Shown piece after piece: positions 4,698-59,954 of a stretch of 64,000 nucleotides of DNA. The DNA is from Roseibium litorale (lineage in GTDB: Bacteria; Pseudomonadota; Alphaproteobacteria; Rhizobiales; Stappiaceae), in the NCBI RefSeq assembly GCF_014842915.1, contig NZ_JACYXI010000008.1:1-64000 (forward strand). Direction: 5' to 3'. The notes under the pieces are model-generated. The model ran no database searches. It saw only the letters and a program-made list of their open reading frames with translations, and was not told the DNA's origin. Position 1 is the stretch's first letter. The number at the start of each line of letters is the position of its first letter. The position numbers and the translations under genes are program-made.

Positions 4698-5376
4698 AGA
4701 GTCCTCGTTTTGAGGTTAGTCTGTTTCCAATTGAAGGATACAGACGATGAAGCGATCCAGGTTCTCCGAAGAACAGATCATCGGAATTTTGAAAGAGCAT
4801 CAGGCTAGCATGTCAGCGGCTGAACTTTGCCGCAAATACGGCGTCAGTGACGCGACGTTCTACAAGTGGCGTTTGGAGGTGTCTGAGGCCAAGCGGTTCA
4901 AGGCCATCGAAGAAGAAAACGGAAAACTGAAGGAGCTGCTCGCGGAGTCGATGATGGATGTGTCGACGCTTCGCGAGATGCTCGAAAAAAACTTCTGACG
5001 CCTGGCTCAAGGAGGAATGCCGTGAGCTGGGCAATTGAGGCCAGGGGATATTCGCAACGACGGGCCTGCGGGTTGGTTGGCATGGATCCGCGGGTGTACC
5101 GCTATCGATCCACAAGATCCGATGATGCTGACCTACGCCAGAGGCTGAAGGAACTGGCCTCGGAGCGCAGGCGCTTTGGTTATCGCAGGTTGCGCATCCT
5201 GTTGAAGCGTGAAGTCATCGAGGCCAACTGGAAGAAAGTCTACCGGATCTACCGGGAAGAGCGTCTCACGGTGCGCAAGCGCGGTGGCCGGAAGCGAGCT
5301 TTGGGAACGCGAGCGCCGATGGTCGTGCCCCAAGCCGCCAATCAACGTTGGTCTCTCGACTTCGTCTCCGATGCCC
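4683..5376 (+). mobile_element. IS3-family (IS407-like) element, right half missing
   Basis: The left end lies near 4683-4690 inside an IS5 remnant. OrfA and the first part of OrfB are present, and the element is then cut at 5376 by the insertion of a second IS3-family element. Sequence resembling the missing OrfB C-terminus or the right end is not found after the inserted element, so a deletion or recombination must have accompanied or followed the insertion. Boundaries at the left are approximate. Confidence 0.65.
4747..4998 (+). CDS. IS3-family transposase OrfA
   Basis: The 83-residue product is a helix-turn-helix/leucine-zipper OrfA: FSEEQIIGILKEHQ, AELCRKYGVSDATFYKWR and an ENGKLKELLAESMMDVSTLREML zipper ending in EKNF. 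Members of the IS407 group usually have a few more residues between the KWR and EVS segments, so a short in-frame deletion is likely here. It would bind the element ends together with OrfAB. The companion OrfB is broken, so it is not expected to support transposition on its own. Confidence 0.85.
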   Translation: MKRSRFSEEQIIGILKEHQASMSAAELCRKYGVSDATFYKWRLEVSEAKRFKAIEEENGKLKELLAESMMDVSTLREMLEKNF

Positions 5377-5765: not shown

Positions 5766-6671
5766 ATGATTTCCTTTATCGACGAACACCGTTCGGTGCT
5801 TGGGGTCGAGCCAATCTGCAGACAGCTGCCGATTGCCCCGTCCACCTACTATGAGGTCATTGCCAAGCGCACGGACGTGGACCGACTGTCGGCCCGCGCC
5901 CGGCGCGACATGGCCATGAAGGTCGAGATACGGCGGGTGTTCACCGAGAACTTCCAGGTCTATGGCGTGCGGAAAGTCTGGCGGCAGTTGCAGCGAGAGG
6001 GCTTCGATGTCGCCCGCTGCACCGTCGCTCGGCTCATGAGAATGATGGGTCTTCAGGGCATCATTCGCGGCAAGCCCGTCAAAACCACCGTCTCGGACAA
6101 AGCCGCACCATGCCCGCTCGACCGCGTGAACCGGCAGTTCTATGCCCCCGCGCCGAACAGGCTCTGGCTTTCTGATTTCACCTATGTCGCGACCCGGCAG
6201 GGCTTTGTCTACGTGGCTTTTGTGATCGACGCCTTCGCTCGCCGCATCGTCGGCTGGCGGGCAAGCCGGACTACCCATGCGGGCTTCGTGCTCGATACGC
6301 TCGATCAGGCTCTTCATGATCGGCGGCCCGTCCATCGCGGCGGGCTGATCCACCATTCTGATCGCGGCGTGCAATACGTGTCTATCAAGTATTCCGAGAG
6401 GCTGGCGGAAGCTGGTATTGAGCCTTCCGTCGGCAGCGTTGGCGATTCCTATGACAACGCTCTCGCCGAAACGATCAACGGTCTTTACAAGGCCGAGGTC
6501 ATCCATCGGAGAGGGCCATGGCGAAACTTCGAAGCAGTGGAGTTCGCCACACTCGAATGGGTCGACTGGTTCAACAACCGGCGGCTTCTGGAGCCCATCG
6601 CAAACATGCCGCCCGCCGAGGCCGAAGAGCGCTACTACGCCATGCAGGACGCACCAGCTATGGCAGCATAA
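5766..6671 (+). CDS. IS3-family transposase OrfB (DDE integrase)
   Basis: The 301-residue product has the IS3 OrfB layout: an N-terminal HTH_21-like part (YGVRKVWRQLQREG, RLMRMMGLQGI) and a retroviral-integrase-type core with catalytic Asp in LSDFTYVA, second Asp in HHSDRGVQY and Glu in DNALAETINGLYKAE. The ending EWVDWFNNRRLLEPI is typical. It cuts and joins the element ends. All three acidic residues are present, so it may be active. It is preceded by OrfA in the same frame. Confidence 0.93.
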   Translation: MISFIDEHRSVLGVEPICRQLPIAPSTYYEVIAKRTDVDRLSARARRDMAMKVEIRRVFTENFQVYGVRKVWRQLQREGFDVARCTVARLMRMMGLQGIIRGKPVKTTVSDKAAPCPLDRVNRQFYAPAPNRLWLSDFTYVATRQGFVYVAFVIDAFARRIVGWRASRTTHAGFVLDTLDQALHDRRPVHRGGLIHHSDRGVQYVSIKYSERLAEAGIEPSVGSVGDSYDNALAETINGLYKAEVIHRRGPWRNFEAVEFATLEWVDWFNNRRLLEPIANMPPAEAEERYYAMQDAPAMAA

Positions 6672-19249: not shown

Positions 19250-20515
19250 TGGGGGGTAGTGTCAAAGATCTTTCGCACATTTGTTTTCAGGCGACGGCTC
19301 CGTGGGTTTGGTGTTGCTCTTGGTAGAGCGGTGCCATGCTCATGTATTTGCGGGCGGACCATTTGCCAGCCGCGATATGCCTGAGCCTGCTTGCTGCCAG
19401 GTTCAGGCATGATTGACCGTCCGGGAAGGCCCCGACAACCCGTGTTCTGCGCCGGATCTCCTTCATGATCCGTTCCAGAGGATTGTTGGTCCTGATCTTG
19501 CGCCAATGGCTGTCCGGAAAGCCATAATAGGTCAGTGTCTCGCCAATGCTCTCTTCAATGAGATCGGCCGCTCGTGTCAGGCGTTGCGCCCGCAGATCCG
19601 CGATAACTGCCTCAGCCTTTTCCTGTGCCGCCTTGCGGTTCTCCTGGGCATGGATTGCCTTCAGCATGTGCGTGACCTCCCGCACCTTGGTGGACGGGAC
19701 GTGGCTTACCACATTGCGGTAGAAGTGCACCATGCAGCGCTGCCACTGCGCATCCGGCAGATAGTCGGCCACGCTCTCAACGAGGCCCCGGCAGGCATCG
19801 GAGATGATCAGCTTCACACCGCTCAAGCCCCGATCAACCAGGTGCCGCAGGAAGTTCGACCAGCCGGACTTGTCTTCCTTCGCCCCTTCGCAGATCCCCA
19901 GGATCTCCCGGTAACCATTAGAATTGACCGCGCTAGCCACAAGCAGAGACACATTCCGGACTTCTCCCGCCCACGTCCGCTTCATGACTATTCCATCCAG
20001 ATAAAGATAGGGATGCGCGCCCTCGATCGGCCGGTGCCGCCATTCCTCGATCTTCGCATAGATCTTCTTGTTCAGGTTGGACACCGTGCCGGGACTGACA
20101 CGCGCACCCCAAAGCGCCTCGGTGATGTCCTCCACACGCCGAACCGAAACGCCCGCCAGATACATCTCGATCAAGGCTTCCTCGACGCTGCTTTCCCGGC
20201 GCTGGTAGCGCTCGATGATCGCCGTTTCAAACGTCTGGCGCCGGAGCTTCGCCCGCTTTGGTGTGAAGGGACCGCTCATAACTGCCGGCCCGCGTGTCCT
20301 GGCGCCCCTCGCTGCGCTCGTAGCGGCCCGCTCCGCAAAGCCGGTCTGCCTCCGCATCCAGCATTGCATTCAAGGCCTCTTCATCCGTGCCACGCACCAT
20401 CTCTCCAAGATGGTCCTTGATCCGGGATTCATCGATCCGGATCACGTTGCTCATCTCTTTGCCGTCGCCGTCATCACTCATGCGTAAGGGGTGTGCCGCT
20501 CACACCTTGACCGAA
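19250..20515 (-). mobile_element. IS256-family insertion sequence, inactivated
   Basis: The sequence from just after the kpsM stop to about 20515 is occupied by one IS256-type transposase gene on the minus strand. The two ends share a weakly conserved GTCAA-containing inverted repeat (near 19265 and 20505). Exact boundaries and a target duplication could not be fixed by eye. The transposase frame is broken, so the element depends on a helper if it moves at all. Confidence 0.7.
19287..20481 (-). pseudogene. IS256-family transposase, frameshifted
   Basis: The N-terminal part (20481 downward) reads normally to TRAGSYERSLHTKAG. The remaining 330 or so residues lie in another frame, starting at KLRRQTFETAIIERY. 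Between them about ten bases are missing near 20255, where intact relatives have a KLKVPKL-like stretch. The rest looks complete: YLYLDGIVMKR with the first Asp, LIISDACRGL with the second, and the C-terminal NNPLERIMKEIRRRTRVVGAFPD region with Glu. It would be an active DDE transposase were it not for the frameshift. Confidence 0.88.
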
Positions 20516-20986: not shown

Positions 20987-22552
20987 TCACGGGTAAGGAG
21001 TGCTATGTAGGGCTGGAAAATTCCATGGCAGGAGTTCGTCGATCCGGCTTTTCGGGTGACCGCCAGCAATGGCTTCAAGGGTCGCCTTGAGATAGGCGAA
21101 GGGCTCGACGTTGTTGATTTTCGCGGTCTCAATAAGCGATGCGATGCGGCCCCAGGTGCGGCCACCCTCGTCATGGCCGGCGAACAATGCATTTTTCCTG
21201 TTCAGGGCAATTGGCCGGATCAAATTCTCGACACTGTTGCTATCGATCTCGACACGGCCGTCGTGGAGGAAGGTCTGCAAACCGTCCCAATGACGATAGA
21301 TGTAAGCGAGCTTCTCGCCAAGGCGGGACTTGGCGGAGACCCGGCGGCGTTGCTCTTGCAGCCATTCACCAAAGGAGGCGACCAGAGGCGCGGTGCGGGC
21401 CTGCCGGGCCGAGAGCCGCTGCCCGGGCGCCGTGCCGCGGATATCAGCCTCGACCCTGTAGAACTCGGCGATCCGGCGCAAGCCTTCGGCGGCGATCTCG
21501 GAGCCATCGCGGTCGAACACTTCCTTCAGTTTCCGCCGTGCGTGCGCCCAGCAATGGGCCACGCGGATCGGATCGCCGCCCTTGCGGGACGGGCGCGTCA
21601 GGCAGTTGTAGCCCTGGTAGCCGTCGAGTTGCAGGACCCCTTCGAAGCCACGAAGGATTTTCTCCGCGTTCTCGCCGCGGCGGTCAGGCGCATAGAAGAA
21701 GACCACGCCGGGTGGGTCGTCCCCGCCCCATGCGCGGTCGTCACGGGCCAAGGCCCACAGATATCCGGTCTTCGTCTTGCCGCGGCCCGGATCCAGCACC
21801 GGCGCCGTGGTCTCGTCCATGAACAGCTTGGTCGACACCTTCAGATGCTCGGCCAGCCGGTCGACCACCGGGGCGAGGTGGAACGCGGCGGTACCGACCC
21901 AATCCGCCAGCGTGCTCCGATGGATATCGATGCCCGACCGGGCAAGGATCTGGCTCTGCCGGTGCAAGGGCAAATGGTCCGCGTACTTGGCAACCAGAAC
22001 ATGCGCAATGGCGCCTTCCGTCGGCAGGCCAGCCTCGATGAGGTGAGCCGGTGCCGGCATCTGGGTGACGCCGTCTGTACAGGCGCGGCAGGCGTATTTG
22101 GGGCGGACGGTGACGATCACGCGTAGCTGTGCGGGCACGATGTCCAGCCGCTCCGTGCGATCCTCGCCGATTTTGTGCATCACCCCGCAACCGCAGGGAC
22201 ATTGCAGGTTGTCGGGTTCGATCACACGCTCGATGCGGGGAAGGTCCTTCGGCAGGTTGCCCCTATTGCGACGCGCCGGACGGCGGGTTTTGGCCTCAGA
22301 GGAGAGCTGCGTATCCTGGCTTTCCTCAATCTCGGCGATGGCTGTCTCGAGGTCTTCGAAGGCCAGTTGTCGTTCGTCTTCGCTGAGCTTCTCCGACCTT
22401 TTGCCGTGAACCGCGTGGTTCAACTCCGCGACCAGCTGCTCCAGGCGCCTGTTGATCTCCTTGAGCGCATCCCTTTCACGCAGGAGCGCGGCGACAGCAT
22501 CACGCTGGTCGGCGGGGATCGCGGAAAGGTCGATGGCGACAGTGGAAGGCAT
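20987..22552 (-). CDS. tnpC: IS66 transposase TnpC
   Basis: The 521-residue DDE-type IS66 transposase shows an N-terminal leucine-zipper-like part (LEQLVAELNHAVHGKRSEKL), a zinc-finger-like CPCGCG...CRAC region and the ADWVGTAAFHLAPVVDRL segment. The core has KLFMDETTAPVLDPGRGKTK with the first Asp, VLQLDGYQGYN with the second, and the C-terminal IDSNSVENLIRPIALNRKNALFAGHDEGG with Glu. An IS66_C-type tail follows (ASLIETAKINNVEPFAYLKATLEAI). It is complete in length. Its last few codons and stop may be supplied by flanking DNA. Confidence 0.95.
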   Translation of the reverse strand: MPSTVAIDLSAIPADQRDAVAALLRERDALKEINRRLEQLVAELNHAVHGKRSEKLSEDERQLAFEDLETAIAEIEESQDTQLSSEAKTRRPARRNRGNLPKDLPRIERVIEPDNLQCPCGCGVMHKIGEDRTERLDIVPAQLRVIVTVRPKYACRACTDGVTQMPAPAHLIEAGLPTEGAIAHVLVAKYADHLPLHRQSQILARSGIDIHRSTLADWVGTAAFHLAPVVDRLAEHLKVSTKLFMDETTAPVLDPGRGKTKTGYLWALARDDRAWGGDDPPGVVFFYAPDRRGENAEKILRGFEGVLQLDGYQGYNCLTRPSRKGGDPIRVAHCWAHARRKLKEVFDRDGSEIAAEGLRRIAEFYRVEADIRGTAPGQRLSARQARTAPLVASFGEWLQEQRRRVSAKSRLGEKLAYIYRHWDGLQTFLHDGRVEIDSNSVENLIRPIALNRKNALFAGHDEGGRTWGRIASLIETAKINNVEPFAYLKATLEAIAGGHPKSRIDELLPWNFPALHSTPYP

Positions 22553-27346: not shown

Positions 27347-28135
27347 GTGGCCAGCAAGGGTGAAGCAGAGACGTTTGTCGCGCGCGGGGACGAAACGGTC
27401 TCCAACCGCTCCGAACGGGCCTATCTTGCGATCAAGGAAAGCATCATCGGCGGCGATCTGGCGCCGGGCATGCATCTTGTGCAGGAGGATCTGGCGGTCA
27501 AGCTCGGCGTCTCCCGCCAGCCGATCCAGCAGGCCATGCTGCTGCTGAAGAATGACGGCCTGGTGGTGGGCACCGGCTCGCGCGGGCTTAAAGTCGCCCC
27601 GCTTGATGCGACGGACACTGCCTGGCGCTATCAGATCCGCGCGGCGCTGGAAGAAGTCGCCGTGCAGGCGGTTGCCAGGAAGGCCGCAGCCTCCAGCCGT
27701 TTTGCCGACAAGCTGCGCCGCAACGGCGAAGCCCTTCTGGAACACGGTCTGAAGATGGTCGAGGCCCGCTCGCCCCGCGGCGCGGTGGATGCGGACGTGG
27801 CCTTCCATCAGTTCCTGTGCCGGGAATCCGGCAATCCCCTGATCGACCGGACCATCGAGGCCCATTGGGTCTATCTGCGCCGGACCATGATCGCGGTGGT
27901 GCGGGTCGAGAACCTCGGCACCTCGATCTGGACCGAGCATCAGGAAATCCTCAGAGCCATTTGCGCGGGCCGGATCGAGGAGGCTGTCGCGCTGGCCATG
28001 GCCCATCTCTACCGCTCCGAAGGCCTCGTGGCCCGCTCGCTGGCCGCCATGAATTCCGGCACGCCCCAAGACCTAGGGGATCAGGATCTTGGGGAGCCGG
28101 ACCTTGGGGAGCCGGACCTTGGGGAGACTGGCTGA
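27347..28135 (+). CDS. GntR-family regulator with FCD domain
   Basis: The product (about 262 residues from the GTG at 27347) has an N-terminal winged helix: RAYLAIKESIIGGDLAPGMHLVQEDLAVKLGVSRQPIQQAMLLLKNDGL. An all-helical FCD ligand-binding domain follows, with DADVAFHQFLCRESGNPLI and HQEILRAICAGRIEEAVALAMAHL contributing the metal-binding Asp and His positions. The start is uncertain. It lies upstream of and in the same direction as the branched-chain-type ABC operon and is its likely regulator. The C-terminus ends in a repeated DLGEP tail made by tandem 15-bp units, absent from typical relatives. Confidence 0.87.
   Translation: MASKGEAETFVARGDETVSNRSERAYLAIKESIIGGDLAPGMHLVQEDLAVKLGVSRQPIQQAMLLLKNDGLVVGTGSRGLKVAPLDATDTAWRYQIRAALEEVAVQAVARKAAASSRFADKLRRNGEALLEHGLKMVEARSPRGAVDADVAFHQFLCRESGNPLIDRTIEAHWVYLRRTMIAVVRVENLGTSIWTEHQEILRAICAGRIEEAVALAMAHLYRSEGLVARSLAAMNSGTPQDLGDQDLGEPDLGEPDLGETG
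28069..28128 (+). repeat. Four tandem 15-bp units in the GntR gene tail
   Basis: Units at 28069, 28084, 28099 and 28114 follow the pattern GGACCTTGGGGAGCC, the first one degenerate. They are in frame and encode DLGxx repeats at the extreme C-terminus of the regulator. Recent slippage expansion is the likely origin. Confidence 0.85.
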
Positions 28136-51431: not shown

Positions 51432-51460
51432 TTGGTTTGGTTTTCGGGAAGAATGTCGGC

Positions 51461-52354
51461 ATGTCCCTAACACTCTCGCGGATCCGCGCCGTCAATGCGG
51501 TTGCATCCGGCGGCTCCTACGCCTCTGCCGCGCGGACTTTGGCTATTTCCCAGCAGGCAGTTGCCCGCCACGTGAAGGAGCTGGAAGCGGAATACGGCGT
51601 GCGCCTGTTCGACCGGAAGAACGGCGTGCTGTCACCAACACCCCTGTGCAGCGACCTGTGCGATGTGGCCGAACGCATGGCCGAGGCCGAGCGCACGGCC
51701 ACCCGGCTGCTGACCCGCCACAACACGCTGCTAAACGGACGGCTGAAGATCGGCTTGGGGAACTCCATGCCCGGCATGGCGCTGATTGCGCGGTTTCTGA
51801 AACAGCATCCAAGCATCGAGGTGGCGGTGGAGACCGGCTCCCATGAGCGCATCACCCGGGCGGTGCTCACCCGGGAGGTGGACATCGGCGTCCTGCCGGA
51901 TGTGCCGGAGGACGGCCGGTTCCGGCGGGCACTGCTTGCCCGGCAGAATGTCGTCGCCATCGTCCACCCGGACAGTCCGCTGTCGCGCGAGACGTCGGTG
52001 ACCTGCGAAAGACTGACAAGCGAGCCGCTGATCTTCCGCACCAAGGGCTCCTCGACCCAGCGCGTGGTCGACAGGGCCTTCCGCTTGGCCGGGTTCGAAC
52101 CCGCGCCGCTCCTGACCCTCGACACGCGCGATGCGGTCTATGAAGCGGTGGTCAACGGCCTTGGTGTCGGCTTCATGTGGCGGTTCGGCACCGCGCGCAC
52201 GGATATCGTCCACCGGATCACCGTGTCAGACATGCAAAGACAATATGAGGAAGTGGTCTTTGCGCAGGCCGATGAGCGCAGCCTGCTGCTGGATGCCTTC
52301 TTCGCGACCGTGGAGGACTTCAAGGCCGGAGCAGGTGTCCTGCTGGAGCCATAG
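51461..52354 (+). CDS. LysR-family transcriptional regulator
   Basis: The 297-residue regulator has its helix-turn-helix at residues 2-58 (SLTLSRIRAVNAVASGGSYASAARTLAISQQAVARHVKELEAEYGVRLFDR). The effector domain shows LKIGLGNSMPGMALIARFLKQHPSIEV and LARQNVVAIVHPDSPLSRE. ATG 51461 has GGGAAG 9 bp upstream; an earlier TTG is less likely. It is divergent from the HAD-DppBC-receptor-phosphodiesterase-ATPase operon, with strong inverted repeats between them, and is its probable regulator. The effector could be the transported phosphocompound or a product. Confidence 0.92.
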   Translation: MSLTLSRIRAVNAVASGGSYASAARTLAISQQAVARHVKELEAEYGVRLFDRKNGVLSPTPLCSDLCDVAERMAEAERTATRLLTRHNTLLNGRLKIGLGNSMPGMALIARFLKQHPSIEVAVETGSHERITRAVLTREVDIGVLPDVPEDGRFRRALLARQNVVAIVHPDSPLSRETSVTCERLTSEPLIFRTKGSSTQRVVDRAFRLAGFEPAPLLTLDTRDAVYEAVVNGLGVGFMWRFGTARTDIVHRITVSDMQRQYEEVVFAQADERSLLLDAFFATVEDFKAGAGVLLEP

Positions 52355-52651: not shown

Positions 52652-53185
52652 TCAGTGCGAGCGGAGATACGCGAGTTGTGCGCTTGTTTCCACGGCGCCG
52701 GGCAGTGCCCGGCGGATCGCGTCGAGTGCTTCATCCGCCGTCATGCCGAGATGAATGAGCAGGCTTGCTGCCATCATGCTGCTGCGGCCGATGCCGGCAA
52801 GGCAATGAAATGCGACGCTGTGACCACGGCTGAAAACCTGCTGCGCCTCGTTCCGGATTGCCTGCCAATGTTGCTCCTGACCGGACGCCGGAGCTTGAAA
52901 ATCCGCGATAGGAAGACGGATGGAGCTGATGCCGGACAAATTCGCGGCATCGGCGATATCCTCGTAGGCAACGGGGTGGATCTCCGCGTCCTCGACCAGG
53001 GCGACAAGTAGCTTGACGCCGTGCGATGCCAAGCGCGACATCTCGGCCTCCAGCACGTCTTCGTTCAGGCTTAGGACGCCATCCTCCTCAATAACCACAC
53101 CAGGCGCACCGCTCAGGATTATCCTCACGGTTTCGCTGATTGGAGTTCTTAACAGGGTGATGGGTTGCAGCGATTTTCTATGCAT
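52652..53185 (-). CDS. CDKN3-like protein tyrosine/dual-specificity phosphatase, copy 1
   Basis: The 177-residue protein has the Cys-phosphatase loop HCLAGIGRSS (residues about 128-137; HCx5R) and an Asp in LPIADFQAP suitable as general acid. An N-terminal strand ILSGAPGVVIEEDGVLSLNEDVLEAEMSRL and KLLVALVEDAEI complete the resemblance to the CDKN3/dual-specificity group. It would hydrolyse phosphotyrosine, phosphoserine or a small phosphoester in the cytoplasm. The gene is divergent from the GntR gene and has a paralogue on the other side of it. No TGTATACA operator was found in front of this copy. Confidence 0.82.
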   Translation of the reverse strand: MHRKSLQPITLLRTPISETVRIILSGAPGVVIEEDGVLSLNEDVLEAEMSRLASHGVKLLVALVEDAEIHPVAYEDIADAANLSGISSIRLPIADFQAPASGQEQHWQAIRNEAQQVFSRGHSVAFHCLAGIGRSSMMAASLLIHLGMTADEALDAIRRALPGAVETSAQLAYLRSH

Positions 53186-54296: not shown

Positions 54297-54854
54297 CTAA
54301 GGCAAAATATGATGGGATGCCGTTTGCTGTTTCAGCAAATAGGCTTTCTGTTCTGGGGTTTCGATCGCTTCGCGATCATGGGTGGCGCGAATGAAGGCAA
54401 TTGCCTCTTCGGCGCTCAGGCCATAGGTCATCGCAAGACCAGCGGCAACCGTGCCGGTCCGGCCCAGCCCCGCCATGCAATGAATTGCAACCGGATAGCC
54501 CGACGCCAACACAGCGCGGGCGGAAGCGAAAGCACTGTCCAGCTTGTCCGCATGTTCCCAGGAGGGCGGCGACATATCGGGGATGGAGATCAATTGCCAC
54601 TCAATGCCCAATGCGGCTAGCGTGCGGGCGTATTGATTTACGCCGAGAACAAGCTCTTCCGCCGTCAGACAGGAGAGCAGCAACCTGACATTGCTGTCCT
54701 TCAGGCGCTGAAGATCTTCCTGAAGGAACGCAACCGTCGCAATCTTCGCGTCAGATGTGAAACGCACCCCGGGACAGGACTGAAGACACATATGGAGATC
54801 CGTGTTCTTCAGCCGCACTTCGCTAAATCGCTTGGAAGAAAAGTCGCTGGTCAT
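54297..54854 (-). CDS. CDKN3-like protein tyrosine/dual-specificity phosphatase, copy 2
   Basis: The 185-residue protein carries the loop HCMAGLGRTGTVAAGLAM (HCx5RTG) and an acid Asp in ISIPDMSPPSWEHA, a spacing characteristic of CDKN3-type phosphatases. DLQRLKDSNVRLLLSCLTAEEL and YGLSAEEAIAFIRATHDREAIETPEQKAYL also fit. It is a diverged paralogue of copy 1, with similar helices after the loop. An operator-like TGTATACA overlaps a TTGCTC-N17-TATACA promoter 38-66 bp upstream of its ATG, so its expression is probably controlled with the transporter. Confidence 0.85.
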   Translation of the reverse strand: MTSDFSSKRFSEVRLKNTDLHMCLQSCPGVRFTSDAKIATVAFLQEDLQRLKDSNVRLLLSCLTAEELVLGVNQYARTLAALGIEWQLISIPDMSPPSWEHADKLDSAFASARAVLASGYPVAIHCMAGLGRTGTVAAGLAMTYGLSAEEAIAFIRATHDREAIETPEQKAYLLKQQTASHHILP

Positions 54855-54889
54855 CTATCGCATTCCGTTCAATGGAATGCATGTATACA

Positions 54890-54920
54890 GGTACATCACA
54901 TGGCGAGCAAGCCAAAATGA
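54890..54920 (-). promoter_or_regulatory. Promoter with TGTATACA operator, phosphatase 2
   Basis: On the minus strand TTGCTC (54920-54915) and TATACA (54897-54892) are 17 bp apart. The palindromic core TGTATACA (54892-54899) covers the -10 box and is followed on the plus strand by GGT, as in the transporter operator. The ATG lies at 54854. Confidence 0.65.
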
Positions 54921-55062
54921 CAGTTTTATGACAAGCTGGCGTCAGGAAAATCCAAAGGCCCGGTCCCATCCGCAATCCGAATTCTTGACCGGACAACCGG
55001 CACTGGAAGGGGACGCACGAACATAGTCTGCCCCTGCAACATATGCCCCGGAGGCATGAGCC

Positions 55063-55806
55063 TCAGTGGGCGTTGACCTGACCAAGAAACCGCCTCGTGC
55101 GCTCCGACCGGGGCCGCTCAAAGAAAGCAGCCGGTTCGTTTTCCTCGACGATCTCGCCGCGGTCCATGAAGATCACCCGATCCGCCACGCGCCGGGCGAA
55201 CCCCATCTCGTGGGTCACGCAAACCATGGTGATGTCGTCATTGGCCAGTTCGACCATCACGTCCAGGACTTCCTTGATCATCTCGGGATCAAGAGCCGAC
55301 GTCGGCTCGTCGAACAGGATGACCTTGGGGGTCATGCAAAGCGTACGGGCAATAGCGACCCGTTGCTGCTGACCGCCCGACAACTGATGCGGATACTTGT
55401 TGGCCTGATCCGCGATCCTGACCCGTTCCAGATAATGTCCGGCGGCACGTTCCGCGTCGCGCCGGGAGGTCTTCCGGACCCAGATGGGAGCGAGGGTACA
55501 GTTCTCCAGCACAGTCAGATGAGGGTAGAGGTTGAACTGCTGGAACACCATTCCCGTCTCCTGGCGTACACGGGACAGTGCCTTGGGTTCGTCGGAAAGC
55601 TCAATGCCAGAGACCTCAATCGTGCCGCTTTCGTGCCGCTCCAGTCGGTTCATGCAGCGCAGCAGCGTGGACTTGCCGGATCCTGAGGGACCACAGATCA
55701 CCACACGCTCGCCGATGCGTATGTTCAGCGAAACGTTCCTCAAGGCATGAAAGGCTCCATACCACTTGTCTAGATCCCTAATCCGGATCACCGGCTGCTC
55801 CGACAT
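55063..55806 (-). CDS. Polar amino-acid ABC ATPase (AapP/GlnQ-like)
   Basis: The 247-residue ATPase starts [27 protein letters not shown]. It shows Walker [19 protein letters not shown], the [20 protein letters not shown] segment typical of amino-acid transporters, signature [16 protein letters not shown], Walker [17 protein letters not shown] and [22 protein letters not shown] 55806 is used because the frame upstream to 55986 does not fit the family. It is the last gene of a receptor-containing transport unit and is separated from the receptor by about 200 bp. Confidence 0.93.
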
Positions 55807-56004
55807 TGCTCTGCTTTCCTGCTTGAAGCCAAGGCTGCACGCGCGCGGATCAGGACCATACCGTTTGTGAGCCGTGATCATTGCGGTCATGGAAGGACGG
55901 GGCCGGGCTTTCCGGCCCCCGTTCCCCCCTGGGGTCGTGCGCTGCCGCCAGAGATTGCTCTGGAGCAGAAGGCGGGGTGGGACCACCTTCTGCTCCCCGG
56001 TGCG

Positions 56005-57042
56005 TCAACGGATGGGTTGCGGATACATCAGCCCGCCTTGAGAGAAGAGAGCGTTGGCGGTACCCGCGCGCTCCAGCCCATAGTCCTCGGTACCGAGGCT
56101 CCGGTCGTACACCTCACCGTAGTTGCCGACCTGCTTGATGATATTGTAGCTCCACTCCGCCGGCAGACCGATCTGGGAGGCCATTTCCCCAGCCGCTGAA
56201 TCTTGCCCGAAGAGACGCTGCACAGACTTCGGCTGATTGGCCAGGTCCGCAACGACCTTGTCGACGTTGCCGGAGGAGACCTTCAACGCCTCCGCGTTGA
56301 GCATCACCTGGAAGCTCCAATAAAGTGCCTTTTCCAGTTCCGCATCAGGCTGTGACAACAATGTCAGCGGCTCATTGGAGATAACTTCCGGAAGAATAAC
56401 GTAGGCCTCCGGATCATCGGCCAGCAGACGGTCGGAGTTGAGCGCCGTCCGGTCACTGGCCAGGACATCACACTTGCCACTGAAGAAGGCCTGAAGACGA
56501 GCGGTCTTGTCGGCGATGTTCTCGACCCGGTACTTGATGCCGCGGTCAGAGAACCAGTCGGCAATGTTCAGCAGCGTTGTCGACCCCTCCTCCGCACACA
56601 CAGTGGCACCGTTCAGCTCCTTCGCGCTCGTCACGCCAAGGTTGCGGGGAACCATGAAGCCCTGACCATCAAAGAAGGTCGTCACCACGAACCGCATGCC
56701 AGGATTTGCATCGCGCGTCCCCGTGCGGGTAATGCTCCGGGATGCCATGTGAGCGCCCTTCGCAACGATCGTCTTCATGCTGTCGGAAAAGCCGATGCCG
56801 CGAATATCGGCCTTGCTCGCATCGCCCAGGATAGCGGCGGCTGCCATGCGGCAGAAGTCGGTATTGAAGCCCCGATAGACACCTTCGCTGTCCGGCACAG
56901 AGAAGGCTGGCGAATTGGTGTTGACCAGGCAAACCAATCGATCGTCTTTGCGGATTTCGTCCATCACGGGACCACCAATGGCGGAACCCGCCGTGGCCAT
57001 CATAAAGCAGCTTGCAACAAGAAAATTACGAAGAGGGGACAT
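56005..57042 (-). CDS. Amino-acid ABC substrate-binding protein (AapJ-like)
   Basis: The 345-residue receptor has a signal peptide (MSPLRNFLVASCFMMATAGSAIG). It then matches the general L-amino-acid receptor AapJ in order: RLVCLVNTNSPAFSVPDSEGVYRGFNTDFCRMAAAAILGD, FDGQGFMVPRNLGVTSAKELNGATVC, LLSQPDAELEKALYWSFQVMLNAEALKVS and the C-terminal GTEDYGLERAGTANALFSQGGLMYPQPIR. Where AapJ usually has a VLSRN-type segment, this one reads MASRSITRTG, so the ligand range may differ. It is encoded after the two permeases, an order unlike the usual receptor-first aapJQMP. Confidence 0.9.
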   Translation of the reverse strand: MSPLRNFLVASCFMMATAGSAIGGPVMDEIRKDDRLVCLVNTNSPAFSVPDSEGVYRGFNTDFCRMAAAAILGDASKADIRGIGFSDSMKTIVAKGAHMASRSITRTGTRDANPGMRFVVTTFFDGQGFMVPRNLGVTSAKELNGATVCAEEGSTTLLNIADWFSDRGIKYRVENIADKTARLQAFFSGKCDVLASDRTALNSDRLLADDPEAYVILPEVISNEPLTLLSQPDAELEKALYWSFQVMLNAEALKVSSGNVDKVVADLANQPKSVQRLFGQDSAAGEMASQIGLPAEWSYNIIKQVGNYGEVYDRSLGTEDYGLERAGTANALFSQGGLMYPQPIR

Positions 57043-57068
57043 CTTTGCGCTCCAAATGGAAATGAGAC

Positions 57069-58160
57069 TTAGGACGTTCTTGCTTCCAACCATCTGCTGT
57101 AGGACGACAGGCACCAACATGTGGCGAGATACCAGATCCCGACGAGCAAATATGCTTCAAGGCCGTAGTGCTGCCAGCTGGGGTCACTGAAGGCCATTTT
57201 GGCCGTGGCCATGATGTCGTGAATGCCGATGATGACGACGAGCGACGTGTCCTTGTAGGCACCAAGGACCGTGTTCATGATCGCCGGCATAGACCTCTGC
57301 AGCGCCTGTGGCAGGATGATCAGGCGGGTTTTCTGGACATAGCCAAGCCCCTGACTATCGGCCGCCTCGTGCTGCCCGCGCGGCACCGACTGGAGACCAC
57401 CTCTCACGGATTCGGCGAAATAGGCCGAATGAAAGAAGACCAGTGCAACCATGGTGGTGAGCAGCGGCGAAAGGGTAATCCCTTCCGGCATCATCAAAGG
57501 CAGGACAAACAGGCCCAGGAACAGGACCATGATCATCGGCACACCGCGGACAAGCTCAATATAGAGAACCGCGAAGGCGCGGATGGCGGGCAACTGGCTT
57601 TGATACCGCGCAAGAGCGAGCAGAACGCCGACCGGGAACGCGAAGACGAGCCCGAATATCGCGAGCATGAGCAGGACCGGCAGGCCGTTCCAGCGCTCAG
57701 GTTGAACATAGTCCAGACCGAAGTACCCGCCGCGCATCAACACGTAGAAGCCGATACCAACGGCGCCCCAAAGCCAGGCAAGCCGGCCGTTGTGAAAGGA
57801 CGGCAGCATGCTGACCGCAACTGCTGCGATAAGCAGCACGCTTGCCAGGAACGAGCGCCACTGCTCGTCATATGGGTAGGTGCCGAAAAGGATAAGACGG
57901 TATTTCTCGACGACAAACGGCCAGCAGGCGCCTGCAACCGCAGCGCAGCTCTCTGCGGGAGCCCATGGCGCTGCAGCGCTGACAAACAGCCAGTCCACCG
58001 CGAAGTAAACCGCCGCGGCGATAACCACCCCGAGAACAACCGTCAGCAAGGTATCGCGCTTGCTGCCGAAAAGGTTGCTCCTGATCTGCTTAACCAAGCC
58101 AATGCGCGGAGCCCGGAGGGAACCCTCCTTCATGATTGGCACGTCTCTGCTGATAGCACT
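57069..58160 (-). CDS. Amino-acid ABC permease (AapM-like)
   Basis: The product (about 363 residues) is a HisM/AapM-type permease with several membrane spans. FALLYIELVRGVPMIMVLFLGLFVLPLMM, AYFAESVRGGLQSVPRGQHEAADSQGLGYVQKTRLIILPQALQRSMPAIMNT is the coupling region. A Trp-rich periplasmic loop (AAPWAPAESCAAVAGACWPF) is characteristic of AapM. I prefer GTG 58160, 4 bp after the AapQ stop and with a GAGGGGG ribosome binding site, over the first frame codon at 58202. ATG 58133 is another option. Confidence 0.9.
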   Translation of the reverse strand, partial: SAISRDVPIMKEGSLRAPRIGLVKQIRSNLFGSKRDTLLTVVLGVVIAAAVYFAVDWLFVSAAAPWAPAESCAAVAGACWPFVVEKYRLILFGTYPYDEQWRSFLASVLLIAAVAVSMLPSFHNGRLAWLWGAVGIGFYVLMRGGYFGLDYVQPERWNGLPVLLMLAIFGLVFAFPVGVLLALARYQSQLPAIRAFAVLYIELVRGVPMIMVLFLGLFVLPLMMPEGITLSPLLTTMVALVFFHSAYFAESVRGGLQSVPRGQHEAADSQGLGYVQKTRLIILPQALQRSMPAIMNTVLGAYKDTSLVVIIGIHDIMATAKMAFSDPSWQHYGLEAYLLVGIWYLATCWCLSSYSRWLEARTS

Positions 58161-58164
58161 CACC

Positions 58165-59307
58165 TCAGCCCCCTCTTGATGAAACGCGGGCGTTGTAGGC
58201 ATTCACCGCAAAGGACACCGCAAGACAGATGACCAGATAGACGCCCATCGACAACGTCATCAATTCGATCGGACGGAACGTCTGATTGATGGACGTGGTC
58301 ATCACCGAAACCAGATCCGAATAGCCCACAGCGAGCGCGATCGAGGTGTTCTTCGTGATGTTCAGATACTGATTGCCCATCGGCGGCACGACAATGCGCA
58401 CTGCTTGCGGCAGAACCACGAGGCGCATCATCTGCAGGAAGCTAAGGCCCGTCGCCCGGGATGCCTCGAACTGTCCGTTAGGTACGGCCTCGATCGCCCC
58501 CCTGACGAGCTCAGCCACCTGGCCGCCGTGATAGATCGAGAGCGCCGCAGCAAGCACGAGAAACTGGATCGATATCCGGTGCCCGCCCTGGAAATCAAAG
58601 CCTTGGAGCATGGGATAGGAGACCGGGTAATCCGCCCAGCCGAACAGGACAGAGGCAGCAACCACAGCCACGAGAACCCCGGTCACTGGCCAGAAGACCG
58701 GATAGACGGTACCGGACGCATCCTGGATACGCCTCGCCACTTTGCCCAGAACAAATATGCTGACAGGCCAGAGACAAGCGAGCACAATCAGCAGGCGCAT
58801 ACCCGATCCAGCTTCCAGTGCAGGGAAATAGAGCGCCCTGTTCGAAAGAAAGATCATATCGTGGAGCGCCCAGCTCTGACGCACCGGCGGCAGGGCGTTG
58901 ATCACGGCCAGAAACAGCGCAAGGAGAATGAGCAGCTTCGGCAGATTTCTCATGACTTCAATGTAGACAAGCGCAAGGCGGACACCGAGATAGTGGTTGC
59001 TGGCGCGCAGCACTCCCATGACGACGCCGATGAATGTCGCCCCCAAAATACAGATCAGCGACAGCACAACCGTATTGATCGCGCCAGCGAGCAGCACTTC
59101 GCCATAGCTGCTTTCGGATGAAACCGGGATCAGGCTTTCATTGATGTCGAAACCGGCGTGGCTGCTCAGAAAATCGAAGGAAACGGAAATGCCGGCCCGC
59201 GCCAGATTGGCGTCGATGTTCCGGACTGCGAGCACAAGAGCAAAAACGAGCAGCAGGATAAAACCGCCCTGCCAAACGACCGCAGACTTTGGAAATCTCC
59301 TTGGCAT
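58165..59307 (-). CDS. Amino-acid ABC permease (AapQ-like)
   Basis: The 380-residue permease has the long N-terminal half typical of AapQ, including NIDANLARAGISVSFDFLSSHAGFDINESLIP, and the coupling segment AELVRGAIEAVPNGQFEASRATGLSFLQMMRLVVLPQAVRIVVPPMGNQYLNITKNTSIALAVGYSDL. ATG 59307 is preferred to a TTG at 59331. It is the first gene of the unit AapQ-AapM-AapJ-AapP. A perfect 14-bp palindrome lies 42-55 bp upstream between plausible -35 and -10 boxes. Confidence 0.92.
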   Translation of the reverse strand: MPRRFPKSAVVWQGGFILLLVFALVLAVRNIDANLARAGISVSFDFLSSHAGFDINESLIPVSSESSYGEVLLAGAINTVVLSLICILGATFIGVVMGVLRASNHYLGVRLALVYIEVMRNLPKLLILLALFLAVINALPPVRQSWALHDMIFLSNRALYFPALEAGSGMRLLIVLACLWPVSIFVLGKVARRIQDASGTVYPVFWPVTGVLVAVVAASVLFGWADYPVSYPMLQGFDFQGGHRISIQFLVLAAALSIYHGGQVAELVRGAIEAVPNGQFEASRATGLSFLQMMRLVVLPQAVRIVVPPMGNQYLNITKNTSIALAVGYSDLVSVMTTSINQTFRPIELMTLSMGVYLVICLAVSFAVNAYNARVSSRGG

Positions 59308-59341
59308 GACACCCACCACCCCGTCTCTCAACTCATTGTGA

Positions 59342-59371
59342 ATGATATACCTGTATACAGGTTTATAGCAA
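59342..59371 (-). promoter_or_regulatory. Promoter with palindromic GntR-type operator, amino-acid transporter
   Basis: ACCTGTATACAGGT (59349-59362) is a perfect 14-bp palindrome. On the minus strand it lies exactly in the 18-bp spacer between TTGCTA (59371-59366) and TATCAT (59347-59342). This layout is typical of steric repression. The first permease starts at 59307. Confidence 0.75.
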
Positions 59372-59611
59372 GCGCTTTTAATAGGAATTCGTAGGTAGAG
59401 GACGAGAGGCAGCTATGGCGCCGAGCTTTCCCCTCATGAACACACGCCGAAACGCGCGAGCACGCTGACTCCGCGATTTTTACCTAGGGTGTGGACCCAT
59501 GCCTTCCTCTCGCAGGCATCGCACGTTTACGCAAATCGAGCTTTCGCCTCAGCCTTCAACCGAAAGCATGCGTTGAACAATGCATGAGGCCAACTCCAGA
59601 CAACCGCAGGA

Positions 59612-59914
59612 TCAGCGCTCCCGGATGGCCTCATCCCGGTACCGCATGAGTGGGGACAGCAGCAGGCCGAGTTCGGTGTATTTCTTGATGATCTTCTGCA
59701 TTTTCGGGTCGTCCATCAGACCCTTGATGATCGTGAAGACGTAAAGGAACCCGGGAAGCGGCATCAGGACCTGCTGCTTCAACCGCGCTTCCATTTCCTC
59801 AGGCTTGGCGCCTTTGGTCATCAGATCAGAAGGATCCTGGTCGGCGAGAAGCATGCGAACGATGCCGTTATTGAAGTTTATCGCCGCGGCCGTTCCTACA
59901 TAGACATCTTGCAT
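59612..59914 (-). CDS. Conserved-looking 100-residue protein of unknown function
   Basis: The ATG at 59914 has a strong GGAGAT ribosome binding site 5 bp upstream and gives a 100-residue protein beginning MQDVYVGTAAAINFNNGIVRMLLADQDP. It contains one short hydrophobic stretch (MPLPGFLYVFTIIKGLM, residues about 57-73) and a basic, helical C-terminal part (MQKIIKKYTELGLLLSPLMRYRDEAIRER). I do not recognise a family. A perfect palindromic operator of the same kind as in front of the transporter lies 27-40 bp upstream, so it belongs to the same regulon and is probably a real gene. Confidence 0.65.
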   Translation of the reverse strand: MQDVYVGTAAAINFNNGIVRMLLADQDPSDLMTKGAKPEEMEARLKQQVLMPLPGFLYVFTIIKGLMDDPKMQKIIKKYTELGLLLSPLMRYRDEAIRER

Positions 59915-59940
59915 AACCGATCTCCAACAGATCAAAAATT

Positions 59941-59954
59941 ACTTGTATACAAGT
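59941..59954. promoter_or_regulatory. Palindromic GntR-type operator, 100-residue protein gene
   Basis: ACTTGTATACAAGT is a perfect 14-bp palindrome with the same TGTATACA core as the sites at 54892 and 59352. It lies just upstream of the small gene starting at 59914. Promoter boxes are less clear here; TAATTT on the minus strand is a possible -10. Confidence 0.72.

Follow-up and report, generated by a model that had tools for sequence, protein, structure and literature searches.

A GntR-linked operator set that probably joins an amino-acid-type importer and DSP-type phosphatases to a MARTX-like RTX operon, partly deleted in Roseibium litorale

Three near-identical palindromes at one locus of Roseibium litorale appear to be the operators of a GntR-repressed regulon that comprises an ABC importer and DSP-type phosphatases, takes in a MARTX-like RTX operon in some lineages, and has lost about 12 kb of that operon here. 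On sequence comparison we put the probability of this reading at roughly 0.8, and the neighbouring GntR protein is very probably the reader of the three sites. With a named regulator, a 20-bp consensus and 17 loci for comparison, what began as a guess about three sites can now be tested as a regulon. The analysis also ties alphaproteobacterial MARTX-like RTX operons to amino-acid uptake and phosphatases, and makes this strain a natural knock-out beside an intact relative, R. suaedae. Table 1 lists the features of the window, by which we mean the whole 64,000-nucleotide stretch analysed; L and G numbers denote loci and genomes.

Table 1. Coordinates of the operators, genes and deletion junction in the window
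Feature	Position	Strand	Description or basis
DSP2, second DSP/PTP-fold phosphatase	52652..53185	-	Pfam, alignment
GntR-family regulator, 212 aa	53491..54129	+	Pfam GntR 1e-17; proposed operator reader
DSP1, DSP/PTP-fold phosphatase	54297..54854	-	Pfam PF22785, PF22784, PF00782
Operator 1	54879..54892		GCATGTATACAGGT, imperfect 14-mer; upstream of DSP1
ABC ATPase, polar amino-acid type	55063..55806	-	profile matches
Family-3 (Aap-like) solute-binding protein, 345 aa	56005..57042	-	profile matches, 4z9n
Permease permM	57069..58202	-	profile matches
Permease permQ, first gene of transporter unit	58165..59307	-	profile matches
Operator 2	59349..59362		ACCTGTATACAGGT, perfect palindrome; upstream of permQ
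'Orphan' ORF, 100 aa from ATG	59612..59914	-	rtxH/hlyD fusion
Deletion junction	59659..59662		4-bp overlap of two R. suaedae alignments
Operator 3	59941..59954		ACTTGTATACAAGT, perfect palindrome; upstream of rtxH remnant

The palindromes described in the earlier note are real, exact copies of TGTATACA being found at 54882-54889, 59352-59359 and 59944-59951 against an expected count in the window of 0.03, with three copies reached in none of 100 shuffles. Two of the sites are, as that note had it, perfect 14-mers, and the first had been placed about 8 bp away from its true position, at 54890-54902. Their placing upstream of three minus-strand units also holds, with centres 31.5, 48.5 and 33.5 bp from the ATGs of DSP1 (54854), permQ (59307) and the rtxH remnant (59914), respectively. 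The further suggestion that two of the sites lie over or between promoter boxes stands for operator 2 alone, which falls between the two boxes of a promoter-like pair (59371-59342); such pairs are no commoner in the region than in its shuffles (2 against a mean of 2.4). R. suaedae carries counterparts of operators 1 and 2 in the same places (L015 10651 and L015 15117), and Breoghania one of operator 2 (L016 15509, with one core mismatch).

Comparison with relatives showed that the sites belong to a conserved arrangement, a gene cluster that encodes a related binding protein, a pair of permeases and either one or two DSP-type phosphatases. Searches with the binding protein returned 10 of 397 genomes of the order (E<=1e-110) and 3 of 385 of the class (E<=1e-100), the window included in both, together with four plasmid records (E<=1e-90), one of which, CP131057.1, duplicates the DNA of G503 and was counted together with it as one. 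With R. suaedae and Breoghania added, 17 loci carry this whole set of genes, so the pairing of importer and phosphatase is recurrent and not a chance neighbourhood. Fourteen loci have a linked GntR gene (the window, L015, L016, L044, L045, L051, L052, L055, L057, L058, L059, L060, L061 and L063), and these are partly non-independent, including near-copies (window/R. suaedae, L055/L057 and L059/L060/L061); the three that lack one (L053, L054 and L056) come from one family. Operators are present in all 14 GntR-linked clusters, giving 28 sites with the exact core in 25, the consensus TAnACCTGTATACAGGTnTA and centres about 30-90 bp upstream of plausible start codons, whereas the same motif search found none in the three clusters without a linked GntR. 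The sites are therefore kept in relatives as one operator set, and across the 17 clusters operators occur wherever, and only where, a GntR gene is linked. In five loci a site lies between the GntR gene and permQ, and in three it heads a GntR-containing operon, both of which would fit autoregulation; upstream of the GntR gene of the window itself, no operator was found with the 14-mer at up to one mismatch. Several cluster genes of Breoghania are split over frames, which may reflect assembly error or decay. In the same locus an exact operator (L016 7648) precedes an autotransporter-like ORF (L016 7586) by 65.5 bp; this ORF is itself split over frames and has a beta-domain at 2753-3610 of L016.

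The case for the neighbouring GntR as reader rests on this co-occurrence (14 of 14 against 0 of 3) together with its recognition helix, which is invariant in all 14 cluster GntRs (invariant stretch SRTPIRQ-LQRL). All 14 contain the winged-helix domain PF00392, the most distant of them are 21-26% identical overall to the window protein, and their tree has two deep clades that share the operator. The protein had been described as GntR/FCD; the GntR part of that assignment is sound, but the FCD domain PF07729 is matched by none of the 14 members at E<=0.1, whereas three control GntRs do match it. In hhalign, the cluster GntR profile aligns with the FCD controls over columns 7-170, into the FCD region, an alignment driven by the shared HTH, and a diverged FCD-like domain is possible. 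Nor is this the sole local GntR, as had been supposed, since the window has a second at 27380-28135 (+), whose FCD domain is clear and whose neighbour is a branched-chain-type ABC transporter. Few genomes of the family have a close relative of the regulator (3 of 87 at E<=1e-20). At the same threshold six genomes of the order have a match, the window included, four of them partial. The matches in G162, G176, G232 and G270, in which only about residues 4-159 align, were dropped from the counts, and the 20 kb around the GntR in these genomes held no cluster binding protein, DSP or exact TGTATACA.

Genome-wide counts show where the specificity of the motif lies. The whole 4.94-Mb genome contains 8 copies of TGTATACA against 14 of the pattern read backwards, so the total is not raised and the clustering is the striking feature. 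The wider 14-mer ACNTGTATACANGT, searched with up to one mismatch, occurs three times genome-wide, each time in this locus (backwards control 7). Likewise, 23 of 30 such 14-mer matches fall inside the cluster in the 11 genomes with cluster and GntR that were searched whole, compared with 0 of 2 in the three cluster genomes without the GntR; in several genomes the motif totals do not exceed the backwards control. Among the remaining five copies of TGTATACA in the R. litorale genome, one is inside a long ORF, two are upstream of unrelated ORFs, and two (L001 and L002) adjoin FCD-type GntRs in the vicinity of solute-binding-protein-like ORFs. By itself, therefore, the 8-bp core is not specific, and one could argue that another regulator, such as an FCD-type GntR of the genome, reads the sites while the linked GntR has a different target. 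In favour of this is the Agrobacterium fabrum GntR Atu1419 (VanR group of the FCD subfamily), which according to extracts of PMC7797058 binds ATGTATACAT, a palindrome with the same 8-bp core, and has several sites per regulon, over or between promoter boxes. As described in those extracts, Atu1419 regulates hydroxycinnamate genes and has an FCD domain, whereas Pfam finds none in the cluster GntRs; the cluster operators are flanked by AC..GT, unlike the Atu1419 site. The flanks at L001 and L002 also differ from AC..GT, and these are likely to be separate regulons that share the core. As the 14-mer is confined to this locus and tracks the linked GntR through all 17 clusters, we consider a different reader unlikely and retain the linked GntR.

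The importer encoded in the window has the full set expected of a polar amino-acid ABC system, with a family-3 binding protein, two permeases and an ATPase, although the SBP_bac_3 score of the binding protein (25.0 bits) is just under the cut-off of 26.4. Its nearest solved relative is 4z9n (E 3.1e-55), which we take to be a Brucella protein solved with glutathione, and the family is presumably that of the Aap/Bzt-type polar amino-acid ABC importers. The length of the binding protein, its similarity to 4z9n and the two long permeases agree with this, whereas the linked DSPs and GntR set the cluster apart, as does the rarity of an adjoining ATPase (3 of 17 clusters), and most may therefore borrow one. 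An Arg and an Asp usually hold the amino acid in this binding-protein family; the Arg is kept in 15 of 16 proteins by pattern and in the sixteenth by eye, and the Asp in 16 of 16.

Among the phosphatases, Cys126, Arg132, Asp93 and Gln169 of DSP1 are invariant in the 24 aligned cluster DSPs (the broken copies of Breoghania were left out), all of which have the Cys-x5-Arg loop and the general-acid Asp; a His precedes the Cys in 16 of them, and in 8 another residue takes its place. PF22785 is matched by all 24, the name of this family, after polymorphic toxin systems, being suggestive and not a test, and a PTP-like phytase family appears among the weaker Pfam matches of three. The earlier note had linked one phosphatase to the operator, which is right for DSP1 but leaves out DSP2, upstream of which no operator was found (14-mer, up to one mismatch). 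Dephosphorylation of proteins, as that note read it, would be one possible role of these enzymes. A phage origin of DSP1 was considered and set aside, there being no match in the phage collection.

The supposed orphan protein behind operator 3 is a deletion scar. Alignment of the window with R. suaedae gives two pieces that meet at the junction in Table 1 but are separated by about 12.0 kb in the relative, so that the ORF is the start of rtxH with the tail of hlyD; in translation it reads from the 5' part of rtxH straight into the final 16 codons of hlyD without a change of frame. The NCBIfam RtxH match (3.5e-14) is below the family cut-off, and RtxH matches are well under this curated value. 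Absent relative to R. suaedae are a MARTX-like rtxA, hlyB and most of hlyD, and no match to the MARTX profile NF012221 was found anywhere in the genome of the window. Operator 3 now stands ahead of the rtxH/hlyD fusion. Because the ORF is open and in frame, with an operator and an ATG, it might be a functional gene of its own, but the separate matches of its halves to genes that R. suaedae and Breoghania keep whole or nearly so make this very improbable.

The intact arrangement can be seen in R. suaedae, where operator, rtxH, a 2758-aa RtxA, HlyB and HlyD are followed on one strand by operator 2 and the importer. Its RtxA scores 619.6 bits against the MARTX N-terminal repeat NF012221, below the cut-off of 700, which the G795 protein exceeds (898.8 bits). 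At E<=0.001 Pfam detects only the RtxA repeat and HemolysinCabind in the R. suaedae protein, and not the cysteine protease or effector domains, for which reason we call it MARTX-like and not MARTX. Such genes were found in R. suaedae, Breoghania, G795 and also G061, which has no cluster GntR; the cluster-only genomes searched gave no MARTX match. An operator accompanies rtxH in all four GntR-linked loci, namely the remnant in the window, R. suaedae (L022 8780) and G795 (L063 4862; 77.5 bp from operator centre to the rtxH ATG at 4788), both with the exact core, and Breoghania (L024 5668, one core mismatch). The three other rtxH loci lack it: G061 and two copies at contig ends in G672, where linkage to a GntR is possible, a distant GntR match (39%, residues 3-110, E 1.6e-16) lying on a separate contig. 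The earlier picture of a compact regulon thus survives in its conserved sites and linked GntR, but has to be widened, since in relatives the regulon also holds the RTX operon.

The known MARTX loci (rtxHCA / rtxBDE), as far as extracts of PMC3034196 describe them, share with these operons the placing of rtxH immediately ahead of a giant rtxA that encodes MARTX N-terminal repeats, and type I secretion genes close by. R. suaedae differs in having no gene for an HlyC-type acyltransferase between these two, in carrying hlyB and hlyD on the rtxA strand, and in the link to GntR, importer and DSPs; the same extracts describe other regulation for MARTX loci. A full-text literature search gave, among the matches listed, no description of this regulon and no link of alphaproteobacterial MARTX-like operons to amino-acid uptake and phosphatases. 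Two further observations concern these loci. A second Roseibium species (G061, L046) has the usual order rtxH, HlyC-type acyltransferase, rtxA, with a divergent hlyB and no GntR cluster. In R. suaedae, a 2299-aa ORF next to rtxH (L022 9471-16370) looks autotransporter-like by eye, with no Pfam match and, at this stringency, no operator.

We propose that the GntR protein would most likely bind the palindromes as a dimer, repress (as opposed to activate) the promoters that they cover, and release the DNA on binding a small ligand. This ligand is probably amino-acid-like and imported by the Aap-like importer that the GntR would itself control. Importer and one or two DSP-type phosphatases would form the core of the regulon, to which Stappiaceae and one genome of another order would add rtxH, the giant rtxA, hlyB and hlyD. 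In this strain, the deletion has taken rtxA, hlyB and nearly all of hlyD, and operator 3 would now drive the fusion. More tentatively, and with somewhat less than an even chance, the whole may be a regulatory cassette: its GntR would sense a ligand and tie the release of a giant MARTX-like RTX protein to the uptake of an amino-acid-like compound, the probable source of which is a host or neighbour; dedicated DSPs would serve the same response, and the cassette would be mobile among alphaproteobacteria with or without its RTX part.

In 13 of the 17 loci the cluster had no RTX operon in view nearby, so this operon is an optional module. This, with the retained Arg and Asp of the binding protein and the phytase-like matches, would suit a scavenging operon in which the DSPs act in the catabolism of a phosphorylated amino acid, or a small molecule like it, taken up by the importer, and RTX merely borrowed the operator. 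Set against it, the stretches read around the clusters show no recurring gene for a catabolic enzyme, nothing specific to phosphate came to light, and in G795, which belongs to another family of the class, hlyB and hlyD lie directly 3' of the binding protein on the same strand, a link there beyond a shared operator. We judge such a scavenging role conceivable, on the lower side of even odds, and keep the repressed regulon of importer, DSPs and optional RTX operon as our reading.

Elsewhere in the window, a LysR regulator (51437-52354, +) has as its best NCBIfam match an aminoethylphosphonate-associated subfamily, at 188 bits against a cut-off of 341.1. Transposase-like ORFs were recognised by eye at 5766-6671, 19287-20369 and 20987-22552, among sugar-nucleotide and export genes.
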